20,060 nt of DNA from Candidatus Hydrogenedentota bacterium. Lineage in GTDB: Bacteria > Hydrogenedentota > Hydrogenedentia > Hydrogenedentiales > CAITNO01. The notes below the pieces were generated by a model. The model saw only the letters and a list, made by a program, of their open reading frames with translations. It had not been told where the DNA came from and did not search any database. Made by a program: the position numbers and the translations under genes. The stretch covers positions 1 through 20,060 of the forward strand of contig CAIXUF010000317.1 of the NCBI GenBank assembly GCA_903922535.1, given 5' to 3'. Shown here piece after piece: positions 3,004 through 20,060 of the stretch. The stretch's first letter is position 1, and every line of letters begins with the position of its first letter.

Positions 3004-3083
3004 TGTCATACTCCTCTGTCTGCAACAAAATGTAGAACAGGCACCCCGGCCCGCCTAACCTTGCCGCCGCGTTTCTGTGAAAG

Positions 3084-3282: not shown

Positions 3283-4728
<1,446 letters not shown>

Positions 4729-4732
4729 CTAG

Positions 4733-4761
4733 AGTGTACGCAACGAAAACGGGAAAGTCAA
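4733..4761 (-). promoter_or_regulatory. Sigma70-like promoter of gdhA
   Basis: On the minus strand the -35 box is TTGACT (4756-4761) and the -10 box is TACACT (4733-4738), with a 17-bp spacer. Transcription would start near 4726 and give a leader of roughly 100 nt before the GTG start. The boxes each differ from consensus at one or two positions. Confidence 0.7.
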
Positions 4762-4765
4762 GAAT

Positions 4766-5267
4766 TATACTCCGCCCATTTTACATGCATTAAAAGGCGA
4801 TGTAGCGCGTGAATGCTCATTTTCGGGAATGTGTGTGCCGGGGAGACCCGCAAGGGCTATACGGCAGTAATGCCGGATATCTTCCCATATGACCGGAACG
4901 GAAGAAAGATCCGGCAGATTGCCGGAATCAATTTCTATGGCGGGAAACTCGGGGCGCATGTTATTATGGCCCCGGCGGATCCGCCTTGCGCATGCAATTG
5001 GACCGCAAGAATACAAGGTGAAACGAGACAGAACGCCATGTGTGAGAACCATGCCGAGCCCCAGTTTGCCGCCGTCCTGTTACAGGACCGGTTCCGGCAT
5101 TCCTTCCTGTTTCGATGTGCGCCTATCCCTCCTTTCCGCCTCCTGTTCATTTTCTGTTGTGGTCGTTTGGGCGTAGCATGCGTTGCAAAAGGTTTTTTCT
5201 TGGTCCATGCGGCTTGCGCCGAGCGCACACCGAAACGCATATTGCTTTCCCCGAAAGGGGAAGGGGA
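4766..5267. other. Divergent intergenic region between gdhA and the TPR gene array
   Basis: About 500 bp lie between the gdhA promoter and the first homologous sequence of the plus-strand array. An open frame crosses it (ATG 4813 through TGA 5365-5367), but before 5268 its translation shows no family features and it has no good Shine-Dalgarno. A small GAAA-loop hairpin (TTCCCC 5247-5252 with GGGGAA 5257-5262) lies at the end. The promoter of the array is expected here, but I could not identify convincing -35/-10 boxes. Confidence 0.4.
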
Positions 5268-5367
5268 ACGGCCGACCCGGGAGAAGGCATTGCAGTGGCA
5301 CCCCGGCAACGCGGAGGTGCGCGGGCCTTGGCAGCAGCTCAAGAACGCAGCGAGAGATCAATCATGA
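5268..5367 (+). pseudogene. 3'-end remnant of a gene-B-like TPR lipoprotein gene
   Basis: In the frame ending at TGA 5365-5367 this reads REKALQWHPGNAEVRG, then PWQQLKNAARDQS and stop. The real end of gene B (to 10435) reads WEKALQCDPGNTEVRG, then VLQQFNGAASDKS and stop. Both the DNA and the terminal TCATGAC overlap with the next ATG are conserved. Nothing of the N-terminal ~550 residues of a B-like protein is visible upstream, so this is a truncated duplicate. Its TGA still overlaps the ATG of gene A (5364), exactly as B overlaps C. Confidence 0.78.
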
Positions 5368-8300
5368 CTGCAAATGATAACCTCGCGCCGCAAGAAAAAC
5401 CGCCGGCCCCCAACCGGACAAGACAACGTCTCCTGCCTGAGACGGTTTTCTTTGTGCTTGCCGCGATTGTCGTCAGTGCGGTGGCCGCGCACGCGGATGC
5501 GCCACCGCCCGTGCAAGACCGGGCACAGCCGAAAAAAACGGTATCCCTTGAAATGGTTGCCGAACCGCCTGACTCCACCGACATCGTTGTTTGTCCGCCG
5601 CCGGGTACCCGCCAAATCCCAGAAGGGGATATGGTGGTGCTTCAGGCACGCCGGAAGGGGGTGCCTGATTGTCCGCCCGTTTGGTCCGGGGACGTCACGG
5701 GCGGTCCATCCTTCGCGATGCCGGTGCTCATGGACAATACGAAGCGGGTGGCGGCGGAGTTCGGGGACGGGTGCGCGTCTTCCGGCGGACAGGATGTTTT
5801 CGCGGCGCCCGACACGGGCGCATTGCACACCTTCCTTGGATCGGGCAGCCTGTACGGATGGTTCTCGGCAAACCGGTCAAAACAGGATGTCGGCGCGGGA
5901 ATCACCCACATGGTTTCCGGGGAATATCCCTATGCGCCCGTGTTCATGAGACCGAATCTGAATTTCGAGCACATTATGAACGGCTGCACGGCCGATGCGT
6001 GGCGTGCCCAGAACACCCCGCGCACAGACCCCATGGAGGTGCGCCTCCTCTCGTCCGCATGTGTTGAGATTCGGTGGCCCGCGCAAACCTCCAAGTGGAA
6101 ATTGGACTGTGTCATGCGCTATGCCTTCTCCGGGCAGAACGCCATAGATATGGAGTTCGAGGTCACGCCGCGCGCAAACGAGGCACCCTTGGGCTATCTT
6201 GTGTTCATGTGGGCATCCTACATAAACACGGCGCGTGCACGAACCATCTCTTTTCCTGCTGTTCGCGACGGGGTGGAGGGCTGGATGGAATTTGGAGGCG
6301 GCGAGTCAAACGGGGGGGCCGTTGCCGGTGTCGGTCAGACTGGGCTGAAATGGGAAAAGGATGCCGCTGTGTTGAATCTCCGCACAGAGGAGGAACTCCG
6401 TTTTTCGGAGCCTGTCTATTACGGGCTGGTGGATGGCGACCAGAACTGGCAGACCATGGACGACACCATGGCCGTCATCATGATGTTTGACAATCCGGAG
6501 AACACTCGGTTTGCCGTGTGGAATTGGGGGGACGATCCCCATTCAAGCGCGTGGGATTGGCAGTATGTGGTGCGTTCGCCCGAGGTGGGCAGGACGTACC
6601 ACCACCGCGCGCGCATGGTGTATAAAAGGTTTCAGGGCCGGGACGATGTGATTGCGGAATACCGGTCCTGGAACCGCTCAATATTGCCCGTGGAAAACGC
6701 GGGGGTGGCTCCGCTTCGCCCGTTTCCGGCCTATTGGTCTCCGGGAGATGATGGATACAACCCGGTCGTGGCTGCGAACAAGGCGGTCCAATCGGCCCCT
6801 GCGCTTGCACTGGCTGCCTATCGCCGACTGTTGGGAAGTCCGTTCTACCAGATGATGGCCGCGAATCAGATAGATGCCCTTTATGACGTGGCAGGGAACC
6901 TTGCCGGTCTTGCCGCAGAATGGGAGTCCGTCGCGGCGCAGGACAGCCACGATGCACTCGCCTGGAACCGTCTTGGCAGGGTGCGTTTGCGCACGGGCGA
7001 ACTCGGGAAGGCGGCAGAGGCATTTCAACGCGGACTGGACAGGGATGCAAATGACAGGGAATGCCGTTTGGGCATGGGCACCGTGGAAGTTCTTCAGAAC
7101 AATCTGGAGGCCGGGTTGGCACTGTTGGACGGGGTCGTGCGCGAGGATGCGGATTACGTGCAGCGGGCGGGAACCGTCTGCGCGGACGCGGCGAAAGCCC
7201 GCGTCGCCACCGGCGATTTGCCTGGCGCGCTGACCCTGCTCCGTAAGGCGCGAAGCCTTTCGCCCGAAGATCTGCGGTACAACGAGGCGTTGGGCGGGGC
7301 GCTTGAGGCCGCCGGAGATGACGACGGGGCGTTGGTCGAGTATCGGGGCGTGGTGATGCAGGCGCCCGAATCCCCGGAGTCCCCGCATTCAAGTGATCGC
7401 ATGGATGCCATTTATCAGCGGCGCAACGATCCCGGCGCCCGCGTGGCCGAATGGAAGAGTCTCGCACAGGCGCATCCCGATGCGGCCACGCAGCAACTGC
7501 ACCTGGGCATGGCCCTGGAGGACTCTGGTAATAGTTCCGGGGCGGAGGCGGCGTACCGGGAGGCTGTTCGGCTGCGTCCCGACTGGCAGAATTCGAAGCT
7601 GAGTCTGGGCAAGATCATCGCTGCGAAAGGTAATGTGGAGGAAGGGCTGCGGTTGGTGAACGAGGCGGTGGATGCCATGCCTGACCTTGCCGGGGCCGCT
7701 GCGGAGGCCTGTGGCCGGGCAGCAAAGACTCGTGTCGTCGCCGGCGACCTGCCCGGTGCGCTAACCCTGCTCCGCCGGGCGCGCAACCTTTTGCCTTCGG
7801 ATCTGGGTTATCGTGTTGCGCTGGGTGAGACCCTTGAAGCCGCCGAAAATGACGCCGAGGCGCTGTCAGAATACCGCGCAGTGGTGCTGGGGGTGCCGGA
7901 GTCCCCGCATTCAAGCGATCGCATGGATGCCATTTATCAGCGACGCAACGATCCCGGTGCCCGCGTGGCCGAATGGAAAAGTCTCGCACAGGCGCATCCC
8001 GATGCGGCCACGCCGCAACTGCACCTGGGCATGGCCCTTGAGGATTCGGGCGATGACGCGGGCGCGGAGGCGGCATACCGGGAGGCCATGCGATTGCGTC
8101 CTGAACGCCCGGAGCCGAAAGTGAGACTGGGTGTGATCATCGCGGCCAAGGGTAAAACGGAGGAAGGACTGCGGCTGTTGGACGAAGCGGTGGCTGCCAT
8201 GCCCGACCTGGCCGGTCCCGCAGCGGCAGGCTGCGACCGGGCGGCGAAAGTTCGTGGTTCGTCCGGTGACACAGCAGGCGCGCTGACCCTGCTCCGGCGT

Positions 8301-8687
8301 GCGCGAAGCCTGTCGCCGACGGATCTGCGCTATTGCGTGGCCGTGGGCGAGGCGCTTGAGGCCGCCGGGGATGACGACGGGGCGCTGGGCGAGTACCGCG
8401 CCGTGCTTGATGAAGTGCCTGAATCCCCCCATTGCAGCGAACGAATCGATGCCGTTTATCAGCGGCGCAAGGACATCTCCGGCCTTGTTGCCGAATGGCG
8501 GCACATGGTGGAAATCCACCCCGATGCGGCATGGCCGCGGCTTCATTTGGGGCTCGCGCTTGAAGCCAACGGTGATCTGGGAGGCGCGGAAACGGCCTAT
8601 TGCGGAGCGCTGTCGCGCAACGCGGCAGTGGACACAGATTCGACCCTGTTCCATCGCATCAAGAACAAAGAATGCGGTGCGCCATGA
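5364..8687 (+). CDS. Gene A: exported protein with unassigned N-terminal domain and TPR super-repeats
   Basis: The protein has 1107 residues from ATG 5364. This start is chosen because it aligns with the start of gene C and keeps the ATGA overlap; the open frame continues upstream to 5115 but looks non-coding there. Residues 1-24 are polar. Residues ~27-44 are a hydrophobic export signal ending AHA before D45. Residues ~45-435 form the conserved paralogue domain: VCPPPG (Cys77), CPPVWSG (Cys103), GSLYGWFSANRS, RPNLNFEHI, FMWASY, YYGLVDGDQ and AVWNWGDDPHSSAWDWQ. Residues ~455-1107 are TPRs in a 174/177-residue super-repeat, with anchor codons at 6870, 7401, 7923 and 8445. The tail (ALSRNA, then LFHRI) resembles that of D. 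A periplasmic or surface scaffold is likely; function is not known. Its first 35 residues match C rather than D, so it looks chimeric. The only Shine-Dalgarno-like sequence is a weak GAGAGA. Confidence 0.85.
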   Translation: MTANDNLAPQEKPPAPNRTRQRLLPETVFFVLAAIVVSAVAAHADAPPPVQDRAQPKKTVSLEMVAEPPDSTDIVVCPPPGTRQIPEGDMVVLQARRKGVPDCPPVWSGDVTGGPSFAMPVLMDNTKRVAAEFGDGCASSGGQDVFAAPDTGALHTFLGSGSLYGWFSANRSKQDVGAGITHMVSGEYPYAPVFMRPNLNFEHIMNGCTADAWRAQNTPRTDPMEVRLLSSACVEIRWPAQTSKWKLDCVMRYAFSGQNAIDMEFEVTPRANEAPLGYLVFMWASYINTARARTISFPAVRDGVEGWMEFGGGESNGGAVAGVGQTGLKWEKDAAVLNLRTEEELRFSEPVYYGLVDGDQNWQTMDDTMAVIMMFDNPENTRFAVWNWGDDPHSSAWDWQYVVRSPEVGRTYHHRARMVYKRFQGRDDVIAEYRSWNRSILPVENAGVAPLRPFPAYWSPGDDGYNPVVAANKAVQSAPALALAAYRRLLGSPFYQMMAANQIDALYDVAGNLAGLAAEWESVAAQDSHDALAWNRLGRVRLRTGELGKAAEAFQRGLDRDANDRECRLGMGTVEVLQNNLEAGLALLDGVVREDADYVQRAGTVCADAAKARVATGDLPGALTLLRKARSLSPEDLRYNEALGGALEAAGDDDGALVEYRGVVMQAPESPESPHSSDRMDAIYQRRNDPGARVAEWKSLAQAHPDAATQQLHLGMALEDSGNSSGAEAAYREAVRLRPDWQNSKLSLGKIIAAKGNVEEGLRLVNEAVDAMPDLAGAAAEACGRAAKTRVVAGDLPGALTLLRRARNLLPSDLGYRVALGETLEAAENDAEALSEYRAVVLGVPESPHSSDRMDAIYQRRNDPGARVAEWKSLAQAHPDAATPQLHLGMALEDSGDDAGAEAAYREAMRLRPERPEPKVRLGVIIAAKGKTEEGLRLLDEAVAAMPDLAGPAAAGCDRAAKVRGSSGDTAGALTLLRRARSLSPTDLRYCVAVGEALEAAGDDDGALGEYRAVLDEVPESPHCSERIDAVYQRRKDISGLVAEWRHMVEIHPDAAWPRLHLGLALEANGDLGGAETAYCGALSRNAAVDTDSTLFHRIKNKECGAP
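6870..8687 (+). repeat. TPR super-repeat array in gene A (period 531/522 bp)
   Basis: The anchor (M/I)DA(I/V/L)Y recurs with its first codon at 6870, 7401, 7923 and 8445, that is, at intervals of 531, 522 and 522 bp. Each 174/177-residue module contains five TPR-like helix pairs. The 9-bp difference is a three-residue insertion in the PESPES linker. The MDAIYQRRNDPGARVAEW segment is repeated almost without change at 7401 and 7923, so copies were recently amplified or homogenised. The last module ends in the protein's C-terminal tail. Confidence 0.88.
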
Positions 8688-10435
8688 ACTTCTTGATCAC
8701 ACGCGCACTTTCCCTTTTGGCACTGGCCGTGGTGCCACTTTGCGCATTCGGATGCTCCCGCGGAAACGATGGAACAGAAATGAAGGGTGGGGACAACAGG
8801 GCTGACGCCAAAGTCGGGAACAACGGGACCGTGGTCAAAGAGAGACCCGTCGAATGGGTAACGCTCGAAGTCGCCGGTCCATCCAATGCGGCTGACAAAA
8901 ACATTGTTTGTCCGCCGCCCGGTGTGTACAAAATGTGCAGGGGCGACAGCATGGTGCTTCATGCGTACGACAGGACCCGTCCGCAATGCCCGCCGCTGTG
9001 GTCTGGCGCCGCAAACGGAAACGCGGTGTCTGTTCCGGTGCTTGTGGACGGCCCCAGCCGCGTGGCGGTGGCGTTCGACGGGCCATGCGCCGCGGCTTCC
9101 GCGCCGGAGGCGCCGTATGCGGCACCCCAAACCGCGGCGTTGCAAACCCTGCTCGGTTCCGGAGACACGTATGGATGGTTCCTGGCCAACCGCCGAGACG
9201 AGCATTTGGGGGCGGGCATGGTCACGCTGGTCAGCGCCGACGAACCGTTCTATTCCGTGTTCAACCGGCCCAATCTGAATTTCGAGCACATCATCAACGG
9301 CGCCGCCCAGGATGCCTGGCGGGCGGTGGACACCCCAAGAACCGATCCGATGCAGGTTCGCGTGCTTTCCCCTTCCTGCGTTGAGGTGCGGTGGCCGGCG
9401 GAAAGTTCATCATGGAAACTGGACTGCGCAATGCGCTATTCATTCGTGGGGCGCAACGCGGTGGACATGGAGTTCGAGGTCACGCCGCGCAGGAACGAGG
9501 CCCCGCGCGGATACCTGGTCTTCATGTGGGCCTCCTACATGCGCATGGCCCGGGAGCGGATGATCCATTTCCCCGGCGTGCGGGATGGCGCGGAGGGATG
9601 GGTGTCCTTTGGCAACGAGGGGGAAAGTGGGACGGTGGCCGGCAGGGGCCAGGCCGCCTTGGACGGTGATCCCAATGCCGACGGTATGAAGCTCGGCAAC
9701 ATTCACACGGTCGAGGGGGTGCAATTCACGGAGCCGGTCTACTATGGGCTTGTCGACGGGGATCAGAACATGGAAACGGCGGAAGACGCGATGGCGTTTA
9801 TCATGATGTTTGACGACGCGGCCACGACCCGGTTTGCCATTTGGAACTGGGGGGACAATCCCTATGCGAGCGCCTGGGACTGGCAGTATGTGCTCCGTGC
9901 GCCCGAGGTGGGGAAAACCTGCCGACACCGCTCCCGCCTGGTCCTGAAACCGTTTGCGGGACAGGAAGACGTGCTGGCGGAATACCATGCATGGCGGGCG
10001 CGGCTGGACGGCAAAGACGTCGAAACCGCCCTCCCTCTGGAAAAGTTTCCCGTCATCCTGTCTCCGGGCGAGGACAAGCAGGACCCCGTGGCCCTGGGAG
10101 ACGCGCTGTGCGCCCAAGACCCGGCCCGCGCGCTACTCCTGTACCGTCAGGCGCTGCGTATCGCCTTGTTGCGTCTCATGGCCGCAACCCAGATTGACGC
10201 CCTTTTCAAGAGCACCAACGACAGCGCCGGTCGAGTTGTATTCTGGAAGTCGGTGGCGGGGGAAGAGCCCGGAAACGCCATTGCCTGGGAGCACCTGGGC
10301 CGTGCGCACGCCGCGTCCGGAGATCCGGCGGCTGCGCGCACGGCCTGGGAGAAGGCGTTGCAGTGCGACCCCGGCAACACGGAAGTGCGCGGGGTTTTGC
10401 AGCAGTTCAACGGCGCCGCGAGTGACAAGTCATGA
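8684..10435 (+). CDS. Gene B: short lipoprotein paralogue with a single TPR module
   Basis: The protein has 583 residues. ATG 8684 overlaps the TGA of gene A (8685-8687), and the next residues are a lipoprotein-type signal (basic start, hydrophobic core, AFGC with Cys24), which supports this start over the upstream frame. The box is not ideal (Phe at -2). The paralogue domain follows: VCPPPG, CPPLWSG, GDTYGWFLANRR, RPNLNFEHI, FMWASY, YYGLVDGDQ and AIWNWGDNPYASAWDWQ. One TPR module (anchor codon 10193) ends after two or three TPRs (GRAHAASGDPAAARTAWEKAL). It is therefore the minimal natural form of the family, probably tethered to a membrane by lipid. Its role is unknown. It overlaps gene C by ATGA, and a 3' remnant of a similar gene lies at 5268-5367. 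Confidence 0.87.
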   Translation: MNFLITRALSLLALAVVPLCAFGCSRGNDGTEMKGGDNRADAKVGNNGTVVKERPVEWVTLEVAGPSNAADKNIVCPPPGVYKMCRGDSMVLHAYDRTRPQCPPLWSGAANGNAVSVPVLVDGPSRVAVAFDGPCAAASAPEAPYAAPQTAALQTLLGSGDTYGWFLANRRDEHLGAGMVTLVSADEPFYSVFNRPNLNFEHIINGAAQDAWRAVDTPRTDPMQVRVLSPSCVEVRWPAESSSWKLDCAMRYSFVGRNAVDMEFEVTPRRNEAPRGYLVFMWASYMRMARERMIHFPGVRDGAEGWVSFGNEGESGTVAGRGQAALDGDPNADGMKLGNIHTVEGVQFTEPVYYGLVDGDQNMETAEDAMAFIMMFDDAATTRFAIWNWGDNPYASAWDWQYVLRAPEVGKTCRHRSRLVLKPFAGQEDVLAEYHAWRARLDGKDVETALPLEKFPVILSPGEDKQDPVALGDALCAQDPARALLLYRQALRIALLRLMAATQIDALFKSTNDSAGRVVFWKSVAGEEPGNAIAWEHLGRAHAASGDPAAARTAWEKALQCDPGNTEVRGVLQQFNGAASDKS

Positions 10436-12687
10436 CTGCTGGTGATCATATCGCGCAGCAAAAAGAGCCGCCGAACCCCGACCGGCCGAGGCGGCACCTC
10501 CAGCTTGAGACGGTCTGCATCATGCTGGTCGCGGTGCTGGGGGGCCTGCTGGCTTTTCAAACAGCCCTTGCCCCCCTTGGCGACCAGATAGAGGGACGGT
10601 TCAGAGTTGTCATGTCCGCCTTTCGGGCACCCGTAATGTTCGCGTTGGGTCACGGCCTGCGAAACCCGGATTCGGGGCCGCTTCCGGCTCTCGACGATTT
10701 CTACCGCGGAACGGCAATCTCATTGTGTCCTTCCAGCGTCCCATCGGACATAGGCACCGAACCGCTTCGTAATTCCTACGAACTCATGCACTGCCACCTC
10801 ATGTACGCCATCGGCTGGGCTTGGCGTCTGCTGGGCATTTCCACACGGTCCGTGAACGTTCTCTGCGCTGTTTTTTATGCGGTGCTCATGGCCGTGCTGT
10901 ACGGGCTGTTCAGGCTGGCCATGGGCCGCGCAATGTCGGTGCTCATGGTTCTGTTTCTGTCCACCTCCCCCGCCTATCTCTATTCCTGCCCGTCGCTGCG
11001 TGATTTCAGCAAGGCGCCGTTCATGCTCGGGGCTTTCCTTGTCGTGGCGGTGCTTCTCACGCGGCGGCAGACACGCCGCTCCCTGCTGAAATGGTCGGTC
11101 ATGGCGGGCGTGGTTGCGGGGGTGGGGTATGGGTTTCGGCAGGATCTGCTCATCTGCATCCCGGCGGCGCTGGCCGTGATCCTCCTGTTTTCGCGGGTTT
11201 CCGGGACGCACGCCTTTCGCTGGCGGATCCTGGCGGCAGCCTGTGCGATGGCCGCTTTCGGCCTGACCGGATGGGTGCCCATTTCGGGAAGCCTTCAGGA
11301 TCATGGGTCCGCTTCGGCACAGGCGATGGTGCAGGGGGCCTCAGAACTTGCGGAAAACCGGATGGATTTTGGCGGCGCCTCCTACACCATGCACTATGAA
11401 TACGCTGATGTTTTCGATTTCGCGGTGGTCAACGCCTTTGCGCGCCGTCAGGGCAACCACGAGCCCATGCCGGGGCACTTTTCCGCGGAACATGGCCGGA
11501 TGGGCAACCGCTGGTTTCGCGAATTGGTCCGCGAATACCCTGCGGACATCTTTTCCCGGGGCATGGCGGCGGCGTTGATGCTGCCGAAGATACCCGCCAT
11601 TTCGCTCGGGGAGACAGCGTCGGCCACCAGTCCGAATCAGGCGGCCATTGCCCGTTTCTCTCCCATTCACCGTCGATTGGCTGAGCATTTCGCCGCTTGG
11701 GGCTTCTGGTATCTGGCCGCCGGACTGCTTGTGTTTGCGTTTTATGACCTGCGCGCGGCTGTTGGCGCGGCGCTGCTGCTGGTCTATTTTGCCGCCCTAC
11801 CCGGACTGCTCTTTGAATTTCGCCACTTCTTTCATCTTGTTTTCGTGCCCTACTGGGTCGCGGCCGCTCTGGCGGCATGGACCGGGCGCGTCCTTTGGCG
11901 GGTTGCGCGTCGAAAAAGACCTTTCCTGGGGGACACATCGGGGCGGACCGTGCGCCGTCGGCTGGCGGGGGCGCTGCTGCTCCCGCTGGCGCTGGCATCG
12001 GGGCTGGCGTTGATCCTTGCCGGTTTGTGGCAGGTCCAGACAGCTACTGTGTCGCGGCTCTTCTCCAAATATGAACAGGCGAAACTTGAACCTGTGCCGG
12101 TTCGGGAGGAAATCGGAGCGTATGAGACACTGCTGCGTCCGGACAGCACCCTTCCCGCACTGGCAGCGACAGACACGCTTGATGCGTTTGAGACCTGCGG
12201 TGAATATCTCGTGTTGGACATGGACTGCGACGGGCGTCCAATTAGGCTGCGTGCCCTGTATGACTGTCCCAACGTCGTGGACTTTACCCAGAGGATGCAA
12301 CCCCATATAGACTATCCCGGCCACCCGTGCCGCGTGCGTTTCTTTTTTCCCGTTTACCAGACCGTGTGGCCCGACGGCGCCGGTGCGGCCCGGGGAAGAT
12401 TTGTGGGGGTTGAGGTGGAAAAGGGCCGCCGCGCCGCGATCCACGGGCTCTATCGTGTGACCAACGCGGAGGAGTTTCCACTCTGGCCCTATATGACAGT
12501 GCCGGAGGAGCGCGGAGTCTTTGTGGACCACAAGAGCGGCCCCCATGACCGCGTTTGCGCCGGTCTGGCAGGCTGCCTTCTTTCCCATTGTGCGGCGGAC
12601 CGGCAGGCGCTTTCGCCGGACAGAATGCCTGCTGTCGACAGCCCGCCTCTTGTTCGTGCAGAAGCACTGGAATCAAGAAGGCCATGA
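10432..12687 (+). CDS. Gene C: polytopic membrane protein resembling GT-C glycosyltransferases
   Basis: The protein has 751 residues, with ATG 10432 overlapping the TGA of gene B. A polar N-terminus of ~26 residues precedes about eleven hydrophobic segments (approximately 28-44, 142-160, 168-184, 195-210, 221-236, 238-254, 265-282, 423-439, 441-456, 466-484 and 511-533). There is a large loop after the first segment (~45-140) and another at ~285-420. A soluble C-terminal domain of ~210 residues follows. This layout, with SLRDFSKAPFMLGAF and FEFRHFFHLVFVPYW, resembles the PMT/ArnT-like GT-C superfamily, which uses lipid-linked sugar donors. I do not see a clear catalytic Asp-Glu pair in the first loop, so activity is inference. 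It is the only array member without the paralogue domain or TPRs. It might modify or export the neighbours' products. It overlaps gene D by ATGA. Confidence 0.8.
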   Translation: MTAGDHIAQQKEPPNPDRPRRHLQLETVCIMLVAVLGGLLAFQTALAPLGDQIEGRFRVVMSAFRAPVMFALGHGLRNPDSGPLPALDDFYRGTAISLCPSSVPSDIGTEPLRNSYELMHCHLMYAIGWAWRLLGISTRSVNVLCAVFYAVLMAVLYGLFRLAMGRAMSVLMVLFLSTSPAYLYSCPSLRDFSKAPFMLGAFLVVAVLLTRRQTRRSLLKWSVMAGVVAGVGYGFRQDLLICIPAALAVILLFSRVSGTHAFRWRILAAACAMAAFGLTGWVPISGSLQDHGSASAQAMVQGASELAENRMDFGGASYTMHYEYADVFDFAVVNAFARRQGNHEPMPGHFSAEHGRMGNRWFRELVREYPADIFSRGMAAALMLPKIPAISLGETASATSPNQAAIARFSPIHRRLAEHFAAWGFWYLAAGLLVFAFYDLRAAVGAALLLVYFAALPGLLFEFRHFFHLVFVPYWVAAALAAWTGRVLWRVARRKRPFLGDTSGRTVRRRLAGALLLPLALASGLALILAGLWQVQTATVSRLFSKYEQAKLEPVPVREEIGAYETLLRPDSTLPALAATDTLDAFETCGEYLVLDMDCDGRPIRLRALYDCPNVVDFTQRMQPHIDYPGHPCRVRFFFPVYQTVWPDGAGAARGRFVGVEVEKGRRAAIHGLYRVTNAEEFPLWPYMTVPEERGVFVDHKSGPHDRVCAGLAGCLLSHCAADRQALSPDRMPAVDSPPLVRAEALESRRP

Positions 12688-14327
12688 GAACGCCGACAAC
12701 AATCATAACTCTTTTATTCGGGCTGGCCTTTGGCGTCAGTGCGATCACAGCAAACGCAGATGCGCCGCCGCCACAGCAAGACCGGGCACAGCCGCAGAAA
12801 CCGGTATCGCTTGAAATGGTTGCCGAGCCGTCTGATTCCCCCGGGATCATTGTCTGTCCGCCGCCGGGCACCCGCCAGATTCCCCAGGGGGATGTGGTGG
12901 TGCTGCAGGGGCGCCGGAAGGGGGTGCCTGATTGTCCACCTATTTGGTCCGGGGACGTCACGGACGGTCCATCCTTCGCAATGCCGGTGCTCATGGACAA
13001 TGCGAAGCGGGTGGCGGCGGAGTTCAGGGACGGGTGCGTGTCCTCCGGCGGACAGGATGTTTTCGCGGCACCCGACATGGGCGCGCTGCACACCTTTCTT
13101 GGATCGGGCAGCCTGTACGGATGGTTCTCGGCAAACCGTTCAGAGCGCGGTGTTGGCGCTGGCATTACCCATATGGTCAGCAGGGACTATCCCTATGCAC
13201 CCGTCTTTGTAAGGCCCAATCTGAATTTTGAGCACATCGTGAACGGCGCCGCGGCCGATGAAGGACGGGCGCAGAACACCCCGAGAAGCGATCCCATGGA
13301 AGTGCGTGTTCTTTCGCCCGCCTGTGTGGAGATTCGGTGGCCGGCGAAAACCTCCTCGTGGAAACTGGACTGCGTCATGCGCTACGCCTTCTCAGGGCAA
13401 AACACCATCGACATGGAGTTCGAAGTCACGCCCCGCGCGGACGAGGCCCCCCGGGGTTACCTCATGTTCATGTGGGCCTCCTACATGCACACCGCCCTTG
13501 CCAGAAGCATCCACTTCCCTGGGGTTCGCGACGGGGTGGAGGGCTGGATGGAATTCGGGGACAGCCCGTCCGAAGCCCGTGCCATCGCGGGAACCGGCCA
13601 GGCCGGGCTGACTTGGGAGAAGGGCGGTGCGGCCCTTAATCTTTGCACCGTGCCCAATCTCCAGTTCACGAAACCGGTCTATTATGGATTGCTGGACGGT
13701 GATCAGGACTGGGAAACGACGGACGATGCCCTGGCCTTTATCATGATGTTTGACCACCCGGAAGACACCCGGTTCGCCGTCTGGAATTGGGGTGACAATC
13801 CCCACGCAAGCGCCTGGGACTGGCAGTACGTGGTGCGCTCGCCCGAAGTGGGCAGAACATACCGCCACCGTGCCCGCATGGTGTGCAAGCGCTTCCAGGG
13901 GCAGGACGATGTGATGGCCGAATACCGCTCATGGAGCGGCACTGCGGTACTGGCGAAGGGCACGGACGCCGCGCCGCTCCAAACCTTTCCAACGTTCTGG
14001 TCCCCCGGCGAAGACGGACGCAACCTTGTGGTGCAGGCGGACAAGGCGGTTCAGCCGGATTCCGCGCATGCTCTGGGCGCCTATCGCCGCCTGTTGGGGT
14101 TGCCGGTCTACCAAGCGCTGGCAGCCGAACGCTTGGACGCTCTTTTCGACACGGCAGGGAATCTGGACGGTCTTGCCGCGGAGTGGGAGTCCATTGCGGC
14201 GCAGGACAGCCACGGCGCGCTTGCCTGGGACCGTCTTGGCAGGGTCCTGTTGCGCAAGGGCGAAATTGGAAAGGCGGAAGAGGCATTTCAGCGCGGGCTG
14301 GACAGAGACACAAACGACAGGGATTGA
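12684..14327 (+). CDS. Gene D, 5' part: exported paralogue domain plus first TPRs, ended by an in-frame TGA
   Basis: This part has 547 residues. ATG 12684 overlaps the TGA of gene C. A classical signal peptide (residues 1-25, ANA before D26) is followed by the paralogue domain, closest to gene A (the run from DAPPP through VCPPPG to GRRKGVPDCPP is nearly the same), including GSLYGWFSANRS, RPNLNFEHI, FMWASY and AVWNWGDNPHASAWDWQ. The first TPR module begins at anchor codon 14133. Translation stops at TGA 14325-14327, where A has TGC (Cys567). The frame stays open after it to 17012 without any length change, so a full product would have 1442 residues. Options are a nonsense mutation splitting the gene, a sequencing error, tolerated truncation to a B-like short form, or recoding. 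Its export and fold are probably intact. Confidence 0.8.
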   Translation: MRTPTTIITLLFGLAFGVSAITANADAPPPQQDRAQPQKPVSLEMVAEPSDSPGIIVCPPPGTRQIPQGDVVVLQGRRKGVPDCPPIWSGDVTDGPSFAMPVLMDNAKRVAAEFRDGCVSSGGQDVFAAPDMGALHTFLGSGSLYGWFSANRSERGVGAGITHMVSRDYPYAPVFVRPNLNFEHIVNGAAADEGRAQNTPRSDPMEVRVLSPACVEIRWPAKTSSWKLDCVMRYAFSGQNTIDMEFEVTPRADEAPRGYLMFMWASYMHTALARSIHFPGVRDGVEGWMEFGDSPSEARAIAGTGQAGLTWEKGGAALNLCTVPNLQFTKPVYYGLLDGDQDWETTDDALAFIMMFDHPEDTRFAVWNWGDNPHASAWDWQYVVRSPEVGRTYRHRARMVCKRFQGQDDVMAEYRSWSGTAVLAKGTDAAPLQTFPTFWSPGEDGRNLVVQADKAVQPDSAHALGAYRRLLGLPVYQALAAERLDALFDTAGNLDGLAAEWESIAAQDSHGALAWDRLGRVLLRKGEIGKAEEAFQRGLDRDTNDRD

Positions 14328-17012
14328 CGACAGGACATGGGGGGCGTGAAACTCCATCAGAACGGCCTGGAGGACGGGTTGGCGCTGTTGGATGGGGTCG
14401 TGCGCGAGGATGCGGAATACGCGCAGCGGGCGGGAACCATCTGCGCAGACGCAGCGAAAGCCCGCGTTGCCGCCGGTGATTTGCCCGGCGCGCTGACCCT
14501 GCTCCGCAAGGCACGCGGCCTTTCGCCCGAAGATCTGCGGTACAACGAGGCGTTGGGCGGGGCGCTTGAAGCCGTCGGGGATGATTCCGGGGCGCTGGCC
14601 GAGTACCGTGCCGTGATTGCCAAGACACCCTGCGCACCGGAAATCCCGCAGTTCAGTGAGCGAATAGAGGCCGTTTACAAACGGCGCAATGATAATGACG
14701 CCCGCGTTGCGGAGTGGAGAAGCCTGGTGAAATGTCACCCCGACGCCGCCGTGCCGCAACTCCATTTGGGCATGGCCTTGGAGGATTCGGGTGATAATCC
14801 CGGGGCGGAGGCCGCATACCGGGAGGCAGCGCGGCTTCGTCCCGAATGGCAGGACCCGAAAGTGCGGCTGGACGCAGCCATCGCGGCCGGAGGCGGTGTG
14901 GAGGAGGGGCTGCGGCTGATGGACGAGGCGGTGCGCGACCTGCCAGACCTGGCTGGTTCCGTTGCGAACGGTTGCTCCCAGGCGGCGACAGCCCGTGTTG
15001 CCGCCGGTGACCTGCCGGGCGCGCTAACCCTGCTCCGCCGGGCGCACAGCCTTGCACCCAAGGATTTGCGGTATCGCGCCGCCCTGGGCGAGACCCTTGA
15101 AGCGGCCGGGGACGATGACGGGGCGTTGACGGAGTACCGCGCCCTGGTTTCGGAAGCGCCCGAATCATCGGAAACACCGCATTCCAGTGAGCGGATAGAT
15201 GCCGTGTATAAGCGGCGCAACGACACTGCCGGCCGCGTGGCGGAGTGGAGGGATTTGGCGCAGGCCCACCCCGACGCCTCCGTGCTGCAACTGCATCTGG
15301 GCATGGCTTTGGAAAATTCGGGCAATAGTGCCGGGGCGGAGGCGGCATACCGGGAAGCTATCCGGCTGCGCCCCGACTGGCAGGATCCGAAGCTGAGGCT
15401 GGGCGCGATCATCGCGGCTGGCGGCAATGTGGAGGAGGGACTGCGGCTGCTCGACGAGGCGGTGGGCATCATGCCCGACCTTGCCGGTTCCGCCGCGGAA
15501 GGCTGCGGGCGGGCGGCGAAAGTCCGCGCTTCGGCCGGTGATGCCGCGGGCGCATTGGCACTGACGAAACGCGCCCGAAGCCTGTCGCCGTCGGATCTGC
15601 GCTACCGCGAGGCGTTGGGCGAGGCGCTTGATGCCGCCGGGGACGATAATGGGGCACTGGGCGAATACCGCGCCGTGGTGGCGGATCTGCCCGAGTCGAT
15701 CCATTCCAGCAACCGGATTGACGCCATCTGCGGGCAGCGCAATGATCCTGCCGCCCGCGTGGCAGAATGGAAAGGCCTAACGCAAAATCACCCCGACGCC
15801 GCCGTGCCGCAACTGCATCTGGGCATGGCTCTGGAAGATTCGGGCGATAGCGCCGGGGCGGAGGCGGCATACCGGGAGGCCCTTCGGCGGCGTCCCGAAG
15901 GACAGGATCCCAAGGTGAGGCTGGGCGCGATCATCGCGGCCGGGGGCAGGGTGGAGGAGGGACTGCGGCTGATGGACGAGGCCGTGCGCGCCATGCCCGG
16001 CCTTGCCAATCTGGCCGCGGAAGGCTGCGGCCATGGGGCAAAAGTCCGCATTGCCGGCAACGACCTGCCAGGCGCGATAACCTTGCTCCGCCGTGCGCGT
16101 GACCTGTCACCCAAGGACCTGCGCCACCGCGTGGCATTGGGCGAGGCGCTTGAAGCGGCCGGGAACGAGGATGGAGCGTTGGCCGAGTACCGTGCCGTGG
16201 CTGAGGAAGCGCCCGAATCACCGGAGTCCCAGCGCTCCAGTGAGCGGATGGATGGCATCTGCCAGCAACGCGGCGGCGCGGCCGCCCGTGTGGCAGCCTG
16301 GAAAGACCTGGTGCAGAATCACCCCGACGCCGCCATGCTTCACCTGTATCTGGGCATGGCCCTGGAGGATTCGGGCGACACGTCCGGGGCGGAGGCGGCA
16401 TACCGGGAGGCGCTGCGGCTGAGTCCCGAAGGACAGAATCCGAAGCTGAGGCTCGGTGTTCTTGTCGCGGCCAAGGGCGGTGTGGAGGAAGGATTGCGCA
16501 TGCTGGACGAAGCGGTGCGCGCCATGCCAAGTCTCGCCGGTTCCGCCGCGGAGGGTTGTGACCGGGCGGCGAAGGCCCGCGGTTCCGCCGGAGACGGTGC
16601 GGGCGCACTGGCGCTGGCGAAACGCGCGCGAAGCCTGTCGCCGTCGGACCTGCGGTATCGCGTGGCCCTGGGCGGGGCGCTTGAGGCCGCCGGAGACGAC
16701 GACGGGGCGCTGGACGAATACCGCGCCGTGGTGGAACAAGCGCCGGAATCCCCAAAATCATCGGCACGCATGGATGCCATCCTGGAAAAGCGGGGCGACA
16801 AGGCCGCACGCGTAGATGCGTGGCGGCGCATGGCGGAGACCCATCCAGGCGCGGCAGTTCCCCGTATCCATCTGGGTATGGCGCTGGAAGCCTCGGGAGA
16901 CAAACTGGGTGCAGAATCAGCCTACCGGGAGGCGCTGTCGCGCAATGCCCTGGCAGAAGTGCAATCGGATCTGTTTCGCCGAATTCGACGATCGGAGATT
17001 GGGCAGCCATGA
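14133..17012 (+). repeat. TPR super-repeat array in gene D (period 531/522 bp)
   Basis: Anchor codons at 14133, 14664, 15195, 15717, 16248 and 16770 give intervals of 531, 531, 522, 531 and 522 bp. The interval 14133-14664, which contains the TGA at 14325, is exactly 531 bp, the same as 6870-7401 in gene A. No insertion or deletion accompanies the stop. The modules are similar at the DNA level, for example the stretches around GAGGCGGCATACCGGGA. Confidence 0.88.
14337..17012 (+). CDS. Gene D, 3' part: TPR super-repeat region, same frame as the 5' part
   Basis: This part has 891 residues from ATG 14337, which lies 9 nt after the TGA in the same frame; no convincing Shine-Dalgarno precedes it. 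It has no signal peptide, so as a separate product it would be cytosolic unless read-through joins it to the exported front half. It consists almost wholly of TPRs in five super-repeat modules (anchor codons 14664, 15195, 15717, 16248 and 16770) and ends with the ALSRNA...LFRRI tail shared with gene A. The coding pattern remains clean with no second stop, so any nonsense mutation is recent or the segment is still translated. Part of the array (15737-16261) is nearly identical to gene E. It overlaps gene E by ATGA. Confidence 0.75.
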   Translation: MGGVKLHQNGLEDGLALLDGVVREDAEYAQRAGTICADAAKARVAAGDLPGALTLLRKARGLSPEDLRYNEALGGALEAVGDDSGALAEYRAVIAKTPCAPEIPQFSERIEAVYKRRNDNDARVAEWRSLVKCHPDAAVPQLHLGMALEDSGDNPGAEAAYREAARLRPEWQDPKVRLDAAIAAGGGVEEGLRLMDEAVRDLPDLAGSVANGCSQAATARVAAGDLPGALTLLRRAHSLAPKDLRYRAALGETLEAAGDDDGALTEYRALVSEAPESSETPHSSERIDAVYKRRNDTAGRVAEWRDLAQAHPDASVLQLHLGMALENSGNSAGAEAAYREAIRLRPDWQDPKLRLGAIIAAGGNVEEGLRLLDEAVGIMPDLAGSAAEGCGRAAKVRASAGDAAGALALTKRARSLSPSDLRYREALGEALDAAGDDNGALGEYRAVVADLPESIHSSNRIDAICGQRNDPAARVAEWKGLTQNHPDAAVPQLHLGMALEDSGDSAGAEAAYREALRRRPEGQDPKVRLGAIIAAGGRVEEGLRLMDEAVRAMPGLANLAAEGCGHGAKVRIAGNDLPGAITLLRRARDLSPKDLRHRVALGEALEAAGNEDGALAEYRAVAEEAPESPESQRSSERMDGICQQRGGAAARVAAWKDLVQNHPDAAMLHLYLGMALEDSGDTSGAEAAYREALRLSPEGQNPKLRLGVLVAAKGGVEEGLRMLDEAVRAMPSLAGSAAEGCDRAAKARGSAGDGAGALALAKRARSLSPSDLRYRVALGGALEAAGDDDGALDEYRAVVEQAPESPKSSARMDAILEKRGDKAARVDAWRRMAETHPGAAVPRIHLGMALEASGDKLGAESAYREALSRNALAEVQSDLFRRIRRSEIGQP

Positions 17013-20000
17013 CTCTTGCCTGTCGATTTCCTATTGGTGGTCTGTCCGTTTTGGTTTGTGCCTTTTGCCTGACCGGTCTTGCCCAAGAGGCACAGCCTGC
17101 TTCGGGCAAGGAAATACTCGACAATATCGCAACGCTGGACCTGTCCATTCCCGGTCCAGGCACAGCTGCAGGCTCCATATACCCTCCGCCCGGCAGGCAC
17201 GACATCCCGAAAGACGACATAGTCCTGCTTCAGGGGCGCAGCTGCGCGAACCCGGATCACGGGCCGTTATGGTCCGGCGATGTCTCAGGGACGGGCCGTT
17301 TGCTGTCCGTGCAGATGGACGGGGCAAAGCGTGTGACGGCGGCTTTTGACGGTGCCGTCTCTCCTTCCGAAGACTCACCACCGGTGTTTGATGCGCCCGG
17401 AGAAGGTGCCCTGCAAACGTTTCTGGGCTCGGGCCACATGCATGGCTGGTTTTCCGTGAACCGGAGCAGACAGGGGGTTGGCGCGGGCATCACGCATCTC
17501 GTCACCGCCGACAACCCGTGCTTCCCCGTCTTCGCCCGGCCTAACCTGAACTTCGAGCACATCCTGAACGGCGCAGCGGCCGACATGTACCGCTCGCAGA
17601 ACACGCCCAGGACGGATGCCATGCAGATTCGCGTGCTGTCGCCCTCAAGCGTGGAAGTCTGCTGGCCTGCGGCGACGTCTTCGTGGAGCATCGACTGCCG
17701 GATGCGCTACACCTTTTCTGGAAACAATGCCATTGACATGGACTTCGAGGCGACCCCCCGAAAGGACGAGGCGCCAAAAGGCTGGCTATTGTTCATGTGG
17801 GCGTCCTATATGCAGATGGTTCGGGCTCGCGCCATCTATTTCCGCGGCACGGATGGCGGCGGTGAAAGGTGGGTGTCTTTCGGGAAGACGGGAACGAGTG
17901 GTACCGTGGCCGGAGCGGGGCAACCGGATCTCAGCCACGATGACGGTTCTGAATGGTTCAACGTCGGTGTTACCGGTGACGTTCGGTTCACGCTTCCTTT
18001 CTACTACGGCCTGCGCGACACCGACATGGATTCAAACACGACAGATGACACCACGGCGTTCATCATGATGTTTGACGACCCCATGACCACCCGTTTTGCG
18101 GTATGGAACTGGGGAGAGGACCCAACCGTGGCCGCGTGGGACTGGCAGTTCATAGTTCGCAGCCCGCAAGTTGGGCAAACATACCGCCAACGCGCCCGCA
18201 TGGTCTGTAAACGCTTTGTTGGCGAGGACGATGTGCTGGCCGAATATCTGGCCTGGCGCGAGACCCTTTCACTGGGGGCACAACAACCTTCCCTGCCTGT
18301 CACTGCGTGCCCCGTTTGCCTCGCACCGGGCAACTCGGCGTACAACCATGCGGCTATCATGGACAAGGTGGTGCGGGAGAATCCCGACTTGGCTCTCAAG
18401 ACATGCCGGAGAATGCTGTCCAGCGCCCTGTACGCGATCGACGCTGCCCGGCGTATCGATGTGATCTCAGAAAAGATGGGGGGGGCAGCTCTGTTAATAG
18501 AACAATGGGAGTCCATAGTGTCCGAGAATCCGCAATCCTCCCTGGCCTGGTATCATTTGGGCATGGCCAGAGAAAAACCGGGCAACTTGGACAAAGCCGC
18601 CGATGCCTATGCCAGAGTCCTGCAAATCAACGGTACCGACACCTCAGCCAAACTCCGCTTGGGCATCGTGCGTGTAATGCTGGGCGAAACAGATTCGGGA
18701 CTGGCTCTCGTAGACGAGATGGTTCAAAAGGAGGTCGGGGCCGCGGAGGCGGCCGCCAAGGAATGTTCCGATCTGGCCAAACCCCGACTGAAGTCCGGTG
18801 ACGTCAAGTGCGCTGCCGATCTGTACAGAATGGCGGTGGCCTGCAGCCCCAATGACTGCACGTACCGCATGCTTTGCGGCGGGGCACTGGAATCGGCGGG
18901 CGACTACAATGGCGCCATGGAACAGTACCGGTATGCCGCCGACATTTCACCCGAATCCGCCTATGCCGCCGTATGCATTAACGCGGTCTATCAGAAGCTC
19001 GGTGACACCGCGAGCCGGGTGTCGGAATGGAAACGCCTCAGCGAGGCGCATCCGGCGGCGTTCACTCCGGCATTTCACCTTGGCATGGCGCTTGAGGACG
19101 CGGGAGATTGGGCCAAGGCGAAAACGACGTATCAGAAGCTTCTTTGCAGGTATCCGGAAAACGGGGAAACGAAAATTCGGCTGGCCGGGCTGGTCGCAGC
19201 AAAAGGAGCAATTGAAGATGGACTGTGCACGATTACAGCGTTGACCGCCCACGGTGGGGAGGAGATGGCGAAAGCCGCCGCCTCGGCATGCGGCACCGCC
19301 GCACAAGCGCGTGCTGCCGCAGGTGACGTTATGGGATCCCGGGCACTGCTGCGGCAGGCATGTATCCTGTCACCCACCAACCTAAAGTATCGCGCGGCGC
19401 TCGGCGAGTCGCTAGAGGCGGCCGGAGACGATAATGGTGCTTTGGCGGAATACCTCACCGTCGTTGAGGAAGCGCCTGCATCACCGGAATCACTGCATTC
19501 GGGCGATCGCATGGACGGCATCTATCGACGGCGCAATGATCCTGCCGCCCGTGTGGCAGAGTGGAAAGTTCTGGTGCAAAATCACCCCGATGCCGCCATG
19601 CCGCAACTGCATCTGGGCATGGCTCTGGAGGATTCGGGCGACCCGTCCGGGGCGGAGGCGGCATACCGGGAGGCCCTTCGGCTGCGTCCCGAAGGACAGG
19701 ATTCCAAGCTAAGGCTGGGCGCGATCATCGCGGCCAAGGGCAAGGTGGAGGAGGGGCTGCAGATGGTGGACGAGGCAGCGCGCGCCCTGCCCGGCCTTGC
19801 CAGTCTGGCCGCGGAAGGCTGCGGTCATGCGGCGAAAGCCCGCGCTTCGGCCAGTGACAGCGCGGGCGCGCTGGCGCTGGCGAAACGCGCACGAGAACTG
19901 TCGCCGACGGACCTGCGCCACCGCGTGGCATTGGGCGAGGCGCTTGAAGCGGCCGGGGACAAGGATGGGGCGTTGGCCGAGTACCGTGCCGTGGCTGAGG

Positions 20001-20060
20001 AAGCGCCCGAATCACCGGAATCACAGCGCTCCAGTGAGCGGATGGATGGCATCTACCAGC
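17009..20060 (+). CDS. Gene E (partial): exported paralogue with TPR super-repeats, running off the window
   Basis: ATG 17009 overlaps the TGA of gene D (17010-17012). I translated this frame by hand and found no stop to the window end, giving at least 1017 residues. A signal peptide (residues 1-25, TGLA before Gln26) precedes the paralogue domain, the most divergent of the four: YPPPG in place of VCPPPG, HGPLWSG in place of CPPxWSG, then GHMHGWFSVNRS, RPNLNFEHI, FMWASY, YYGLRDTDM and AVWNWGEDPTVAAWDWQ. TPRs start near residue 440, with anchor codons at 18455, 18977, 19511 and 20042. The first TPR modules are distinctive, but from about 19531 the DNA is nearly identical to gene D at 15737-16261. 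A periplasmic or surface protein is expected. Function is unknown, and the true length cannot be seen. Confidence 0.87.
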   Translation, partial: MTLACRFPIGGLSVLVCAFCLTGLAQEAQPASGKEILDNIATLDLSIPGPGTAAGSIYPPPGRHDIPKDDIVLLQGRSCANPDHGPLWSGDVSGTGRLLSVQMDGAKRVTAAFDGAVSPSEDSPPVFDAPGEGALQTFLGSGHMHGWFSVNRSRQGVGAGITHLVTADNPCFPVFARPNLNFEHILNGAAADMYRSQNTPRTDAMQIRVLSPSSVEVCWPAATSSWSIDCRMRYTFSGNNAIDMDFEATPRKDEAPKGWLLFMWASYMQMVRARAIYFRGTDGGGERWVSFGKTGTSGTVAGAGQPDLSHDDGSEWFNVGVTGDVRFTLPFYYGLRDTDMDSNTTDDTTAFIMMFDDPMTTRFAVWNWGEDPTVAAWDWQFIVRSPQVGQTYRQRARMVCKRFVGEDDVLAEYLAWRETLSLGAQQPSLPVTACPVCLAPGNSAYNHAAIMDKVVRENPDLALKTCRRMLSSALYAIDAARRIDVISEKMGGAALLIEQWESIVSENPQSSLAWYHLGMAREKPGNLDKAADAYARVLQINGTDTSAKLRLGIVRVMLGETDSGLALVDEMVQKEVGAAEAAAKECSDLAKPRLKSGDVKCAADLYRMAVACSPNDCTYRMLCGGALESAGDYNGAMEQYRYAADISPESAYAAVCINAVYQKLGDTASRVSEWKRLSEAHPAAFTPAFHLGMALEDAGDWAKAKTTYQKLLCRYPENGETKIRLAGLVAAKGAIEDGLCTITALTAHGGEEMAKAAASACGTAAQARAAAGDVMGSRALLRQACILSPTNLKYRAALGESLEAAGDDNGALAEYLTVVEEAPASPESLHSGDRMDGIYRRRNDPAARVAEWKVLVQNHPDAAMPQLHLGMALEDSGDPSGAEAAYREALRLRPEGQDSKLRLGAIIAAKGKVEEGLQMVDEAARALPGLASLAAEGCGHAAKARASASDSAGALALAKRARELSPTDLRHRVALGEALEAAGDKDGALAEYRAVAEEAPESPESQRSSERMDGIYQ
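18455..20060 (+). repeat. TPR super-repeat array in gene E
   Basis: Anchor codons at 18455, 18977, 19511 and 20042 give intervals of 522, 534 and 531 bp. The first two modules are diverged and contain Cys residues not seen elsewhere (for example CSPNDCTYRMLCGG). The later modules carry the same sequence as gene D. The array continues beyond the window. Confidence 0.82.

Follow-up and report, generated by a model that had tools for sequence, protein, structure and literature searches.

The gene denoted A, in a stretch of 20,060 nucleotides from a Candidatus Hydrogenedentota bacterium (the whole stretch is referred to here as the window), raises the question of how its 5' end was put together and from which parent genes. 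Tandem duplication with partial deletion of paralogues is a known source of chimeric genes, and an initial annotation had proposed that A carries a remnant of gene B, the N-terminus of membrane protein C and the body of gene D. Gene A (5364-8687) is an uninterrupted frame of 1107 codons, and the start codon of each of A, B, C, D and E is held in an ATGA overlap; the stop codon overlapped by the start of A belongs to a short ORF of 109 codons (5038-5367). Searches with TPR families show long TPR arrays in A, D and E, and a short array in B. The left neighbour of the cluster, gdh, lies on the opposite strand and served as the anchor for comparisons of the left end. The features of the window are collected in Table 1. 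In D, an in-frame TGA is present where A is open and the same frame resumes downstream (ORF from 14337); a nonsense mutation, recoding or a sequencing error may be responsible.

Table 1. Coordinates of the features described in the window.
Feature	Coordinates	Strand	Basis
gdh, NADP-specific glutamate dehydrogenase	3283..4665	-	NF006929, 766.3 bits (cut-off 536)
Conserved DNA, interval from gdh to lead start	4668..5037	+	blastn to L003 and L004
Remnant of lead gene start (MCENHAEPQFAAVLLQDRFRHSFLFR...)	5038..5123	+	Alignment to L003 and L004
Stretch without assigned origin, ~140 bases	5124..5268	+	No stop in the lead-start frame
B-type 3' end	5269..5367	+	In frame with lead start; 72/91 bases vs B
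C-type start of A, 34 codons, ATGA overlap included	5364..5465	+	73/102 bases vs C
C/D breakpoint interval	5463..5471	+	Change-point optimum 5467
A, D-type body: end of hydrophobic core, AHA/DAPPP, shared domain, TPR array	5466..8687	+	259/301 bases vs D at 5466-5766
B, shared domain and short TPR stretch	8684..10435	+	ORF; TPR families; domain tree
C, PMT_2-type membrane protein	10432..12687	+	PF13231, 36.3 bits (gathering score 26.1)
D, in-frame TGA at 14325-14327	12684..17012	+	ORFs
E, continues past window end	17009..20060	+	ORF; start in ATGA overlap

A has a mosaic 5' region, in which a B-type 3' end precedes the start codon, a C-type start of 34 codons follows and a D-type body completes the gene. 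A repeat finder paired 5273-5465 with 10341-10533 (75%) and 5467-5766 with 12730-13029 (86%) as separate families. Across 5273-5466, 145 of 194 bases are those of the B/C junction and 47 those of D, and across 5467-5639, 142 of 173 bases are those of D and 49 those of B/C; the two parts of A therefore have different nearest parents, separated by a sharp breakpoint, and the parents B, C and D all lie in the same window. The copy of the 3' end of B that had been reported upstream of A, ATGA included, was recovered at 5273-5363 (72/91 bases vs 10341-10431, offset +5068); the best-scoring left edge of this copy is 5273, closely followed by 5269, and the ATGA at 5364-5367 is common to the A and B/C junctions. 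The likeness of the first ~35 residues of A to C was likewise borne out, with 73/102 bases and 17/34 residues matching between 5364-5465 and 10432-10533. The D-type body matches D at 259/301 bases over 5466-5766 (offset +7263), further stretches of A match D downstream, and A resembles D-type sequence along the whole gene, 3' end included (repeat families D12, D13 and D18).

Alignments proposed to locate the crossover were performed, and change-point analysis places the switch from C to D best at 5467 (positions 5463-5471 lie less than 3 log units from the optimum), inside the hydrophobic segment as expected. The initial annotation had the match to D begin at DAPPP (from 5496); the D-type body stands, although the likeness to D begins ~30 bases earlier, at residue 35 of A (IVVSA), within the hydrophobic core. 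The similarity to the B/C junction, on which the earlier reading depended, is strong: the local score of 5268-5465 against 10337-10545 is 97, and 500 dinucleotide-preserving shuffles gave a mean of 10.2 and a maximum of 19. When 5268-5465 was laid without gaps along the same strand of the window (offsets under 200 left out), the B/C junction gave 147/198 matches and the runner-up 80. A two-source model, assuming identities of 0.75 and 0.86 and a background of 0.27, scores 208.9 log units, compared with 12.8 for B/C alone and -75.0 for D alone.

The mosaic region stands behind a remnant of the conserved lead gene of the cluster. No relative emerged from a first scan, which covered one genome per species, and a second scan, with an alignment of 17 family members, found 66 loci, the closest four of which lie in two Hydrogenedentota MAGs, Loclat_bin-18389 (L001-L003) and AlinenLipids_bin-3554 (L004). 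The left end is assembled in two of these loci only, L003 and L004, and in both a lead gene of the family diverges from gdh; C comes next in L004, and L003 ends within the lead gene. The interval 4668-5037 aligns by blastn to L003 (81% over 101 and 72% over 181 columns) and to L004 (77% over 98 and 68% over 187 columns), with its middle (about 4766-4850) unaligned to either. The adjoining 5016-5123 scores 110 against L003 and 74 against L004, where 200 two-base-block shuffles reached at most 28 and 26, respectively. These alignments indicate that the window has kept the upstream region and the first ~26 codons of the lead gene. A close relative of a long opposite-strand gene at 352-3009 of the window, which has partial, sub-cut-off matches to phosphoenolpyruvate synthase models, sits beyond gdh in the same place in L004.

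Downstream of the lead start, 5131-5268 stays below the 95% shuffle level of 21 when scored against the lead gene of L003 (17) or of L004 (18), and blastn of 5114-5275 returned only the self-match in the window and the loci compared. An assignment of 5131-5268 to the lead gene, drawn by eye from LLSPKGEGE and VLSPPPGE, was rejected as not exceeding shuffles, as was the possibility that the start of B is a piece of the leader. The lead start and the B-type tail share one frame; the chance of this is ~0.10 (0.30 for no stop times one third for frame), so the open frame could be luck and selection for it was not adopted as an explanation. The 25-mer CGGTTCCGGCATTCYTTCCTGTTTC occurs once in the window and once in each of two related genomes searched (up to 3 mismatches). 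Constraint at the nucleotide level on the lead start was also considered and rejected: third positions of conserved gdh codons are identical in all three sequences at 299/408, and the conservation of the 25-mer is therefore unremarkable.

A phylogenetic tree of 32 copies of the shared domain places A and D with the D-type relatives P0003-P0006 (95/96), within which A and D pair at 90/75. B falls in a group (88/94) that also holds P0007, P0008, P0009 and the second P0002 domain, and this fork, which joins B to the lead bodies P0007 and P0008, is not strongly supported. E belongs to a clade (100/99) with P0011, P0012, P0014, P0015 and the first P0002 domain. Compared by eye, P0008 is almost identical to the lead gene of L003 and P0011 is the lead gene of L004, and a lead-type N-terminus is found on P0007 and P0008 of the B clade, on P0011 of the E clade and on P0010 and P0013, which form their own clade (97/97). 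Next to gdh, two body clades thus share this leader, and a third body clade carries it in P0010 and P0013. P0002 is itself another fusion within the family, with an E-type first and a B-type second copy of the domain; its last residues may be a database artefact. The shared domain and TPRs also occur in one chain with a membrane protein at L002 (498-5453) and L131 (7066-16387), as well as in P0017, P0021, P0023 and P0027, the last four being marked PMT_2 (PF13231). The domain is present in P0029-P0047 (679-1327 aa), of which 15 of 19 are marked PF00150 (cellulase family) and several are named Candidatus Hydrogenedentes, and viral contigs gave two distant matches.

A is the odd one among its relatives, given that the relatives of C in L002 and L004 keep the C-type start and that all five other D-type genes with a readable start (D of the window, P0003, P0004, P0005 and L002) have the short D-type signal; P0006 was left out of this count on account of its internal predicted start. 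Read in the DNA of the relatives, D-type starts lie at an ATGA in L001 (823) and at a GTGA in L002 (8254, before a frame change). In L002 (8254-8500) the D-type gene begins at this GTGA overlap and its frame changes near 8490. A match to the A domain was found in 37 of 100 relatives of genome G001, and a match to C in at least 39 of them (G001 and G002 being among the 100); among the matches listed, identity exceeds 50% only in G001 and G002, whose left ends show no A-type fusion. The relatives yielded no positional orthologue of A, and A was encountered on one contig only. A protein search with residues 1-75 of A found A alone among 70 candidates, in a search that needs shared 5-residue words and missed the long C relatives P0049 and P0051. 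Among the titles and abstract beginnings consulted, no title names this cluster.

By eye and by hydropathy count, the signal region of A comprises an n-region, a hydrophobic core and a cleavage-like site, AHA before D. The n-region and the first part of the core are C-type, and the end of the core and the cleavage-like site are D-type, suggesting that A is a putative Sec-exported protein with a hybrid signal. The initial proposal that the first helix of C became the export signal of A therefore holds for residues 1-34 of C, which are kept, but the whole helix was not taken, since the later core and the AxA site are those of D. A probably lacks a lasting membrane anchor. The shared domain has fold similarity to the galactose mutarotase-like fold, with low Foldseek TM-scores (3nre, 0.29 by query and 0.45 by target). 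When solved structures were searched with a profile, the 60 of 227 matches listed aligned best beyond profile position 453, in the TPR part. In the window, no match to Rfam was found at gathering scores, RNA structure at 5200-5300 has a z-score of -0.17, and promoter- and terminator-like sites are consensus matches only.

Base differences amount to 21% between the B-type piece and B, 28% between the C-type piece and C and 14% between the body and D (over its first 301 bases), and the event that formed the mosaic is therefore not recent. Synonymous divergence is uneven: dS is 0.35 in the B part (5269-5364) and 0.57 in the C part, and between A and D the opening 300 bases of the body give 0.34, followed by 0.72, 0.97, 1.68, 1.09 and 0.55 in successive segments, the last of which is short. 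Over 5466-6965, the low value beside the junction and the higher values in the next four segments resemble the trace that a conversion tract might leave. Given this unevenness, a single age for all pieces fails unless conversion followed, and later conversion near the junction would explain it. Over 5466-7063, A and D show a dN of 0.142 and a dS of 0.80, giving a dN/dS of ~0.18, and the body looks to be under purifying selection. This ratio, along with the open frame of 1107 codons, suggests that A is probably functional.

From left to right, the window carries the lead start, B end, C start and D body and then B, C, D and E, so that the remnants repeat the order of B, C and D in the same window. 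Given that B belongs with lead bodies and that L004 has a lead gene followed by C, the remnants are most readily understood as the left-hand copy of a lead/B-C-D block. In the history that we consider probable from these comparisons, such a block would have been duplicated in tandem, with B-C-D of the window as the right copy; in the left copy, one loss would have taken most of a lead/B-type gene, and a separate in-frame loss would have run from codon 35 of C to the middle of the D signal peptide. ATGA coupling to the short lead/B remnant ORF in front of it would then allow translation of A, and a hybrid signal (n-region and early core of C type, core end and AHA site of D type) would direct its export; the exported product would carry a domain of galactose mutarotase-like fold and a TPR array. 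The duplication of a B-C-D block and deletion within the hydrophobic segment proposed initially remain the simplest account of the order but are incomplete, as the DNA before the B remnant is the conserved left end of the cluster and a second loss, of the lead/B-type gene, is needed. An intact B-C-A left end, for which relatives were to be searched, was not found, L003 and L004 showing gdh and then the lead gene; an intact lead-C-D left of B, or another intact left block, was not found in the relatives either, and so the order of events is one that we infer. The initial observation is thus confirmed, and its interpretation is supported in part, with the lead gene to be added as a third parent.

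An alternative is that the left copy consisted of a lead gene and a second C, into which a D-type body was copied from the right copy by gene conversion or insertion. The low dS beside the junction (0.34, against 0.72-1.68 in the next four segments) is as this predicts, and in L004 the lead gene and C are present without a D-type gene before the next membrane protein, but A is D-like along its whole length, 3' end included, and B comes after it, where the next block is expected to begin, which requires a long copy, and the low dS equally fits a later tract over an older fusion; we regard this alternative as unlikely. It is very improbable that the joint at 5465 is an assembly artefact combining reads from separate genes or strains: A is seen on one contig only, but its pieces diverge from the B, C and D genes on that contig to the extent given above, the frame passes through the joint without a stop, and on the left the sequence runs on into the conserved left end. 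Likeness between signal peptides and first helices is common, and the start of A could in principle resemble that of C by chance or convergence, without common descent; this is scarcely credible and already refuted, since the ungapped DNA match spans the stop codon of B, the start codon and the charged n-region, at 147/198 matches against 80 for the next placement and a score of 97 against a shuffle maximum of 19.

More tentatively, the left end may be a site of repeated body exchange, at which the upstream region, start and export leader by gdh are fixed and the body is swapped among tandem paralogues. The leader is followed by a B-type body in L003 and an E-type body in L004, the window has a cut-down leader ORF before the C/D chimera, and the leader is also found on the third body clade (P0010 and P0013); this possibility, which is rather doubtful, draws on two relatives and a few unplaced proteins. 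If true, body exchange would be a route to diversified exported proteins in a little-studied phylum, amounting to slow, cassette-like diversification of an exported protein in Hydrogenedentota. A itself is a well-resolved fossil of bacterial gene birth, in which several parent remnants are readable and one breakpoint is placed within 9 bases, and suggests that the start of a membrane protein can become an export signal when a second parent brings the cleavage site.

The shared domain has 8-10% identity to galactose mutarotase-like supersandwich proteins, including the TPR protein BDI_1685 (5cd6); the likeness would be one of fold, and membership of the enzyme family is not claimed. The XrtA/PEP-CTERM TPR protein PrsT (TIGR02917) has a TPR array in common with A, but the 110 bits of the match fall far below the cut-off of 312.2 bits, and A is not assigned to that family. 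The PMT_2-domain fusions P0017, P0021, P0023 and P0027 resemble A in joining a membrane-protein start and the shared domain in one chain, whereas they carry a PMT_2-type membrane part before the domain and A has only 34 C-type residues. A is a clear but ordinary new instance of a known process, gene birth by copying and DNA loss. In comparison with known chimeras of tandem paralogues, an intact pre-fusion state was not found for A at the left ends of L003 and L004, which are without a left D-type gene. As in those chimeras, the parents of A adjoin it, the breakpoint is sharp and in frame and the frame is open; unlike them, A has three parents that are still readable and a joint that lies inside the export signal.
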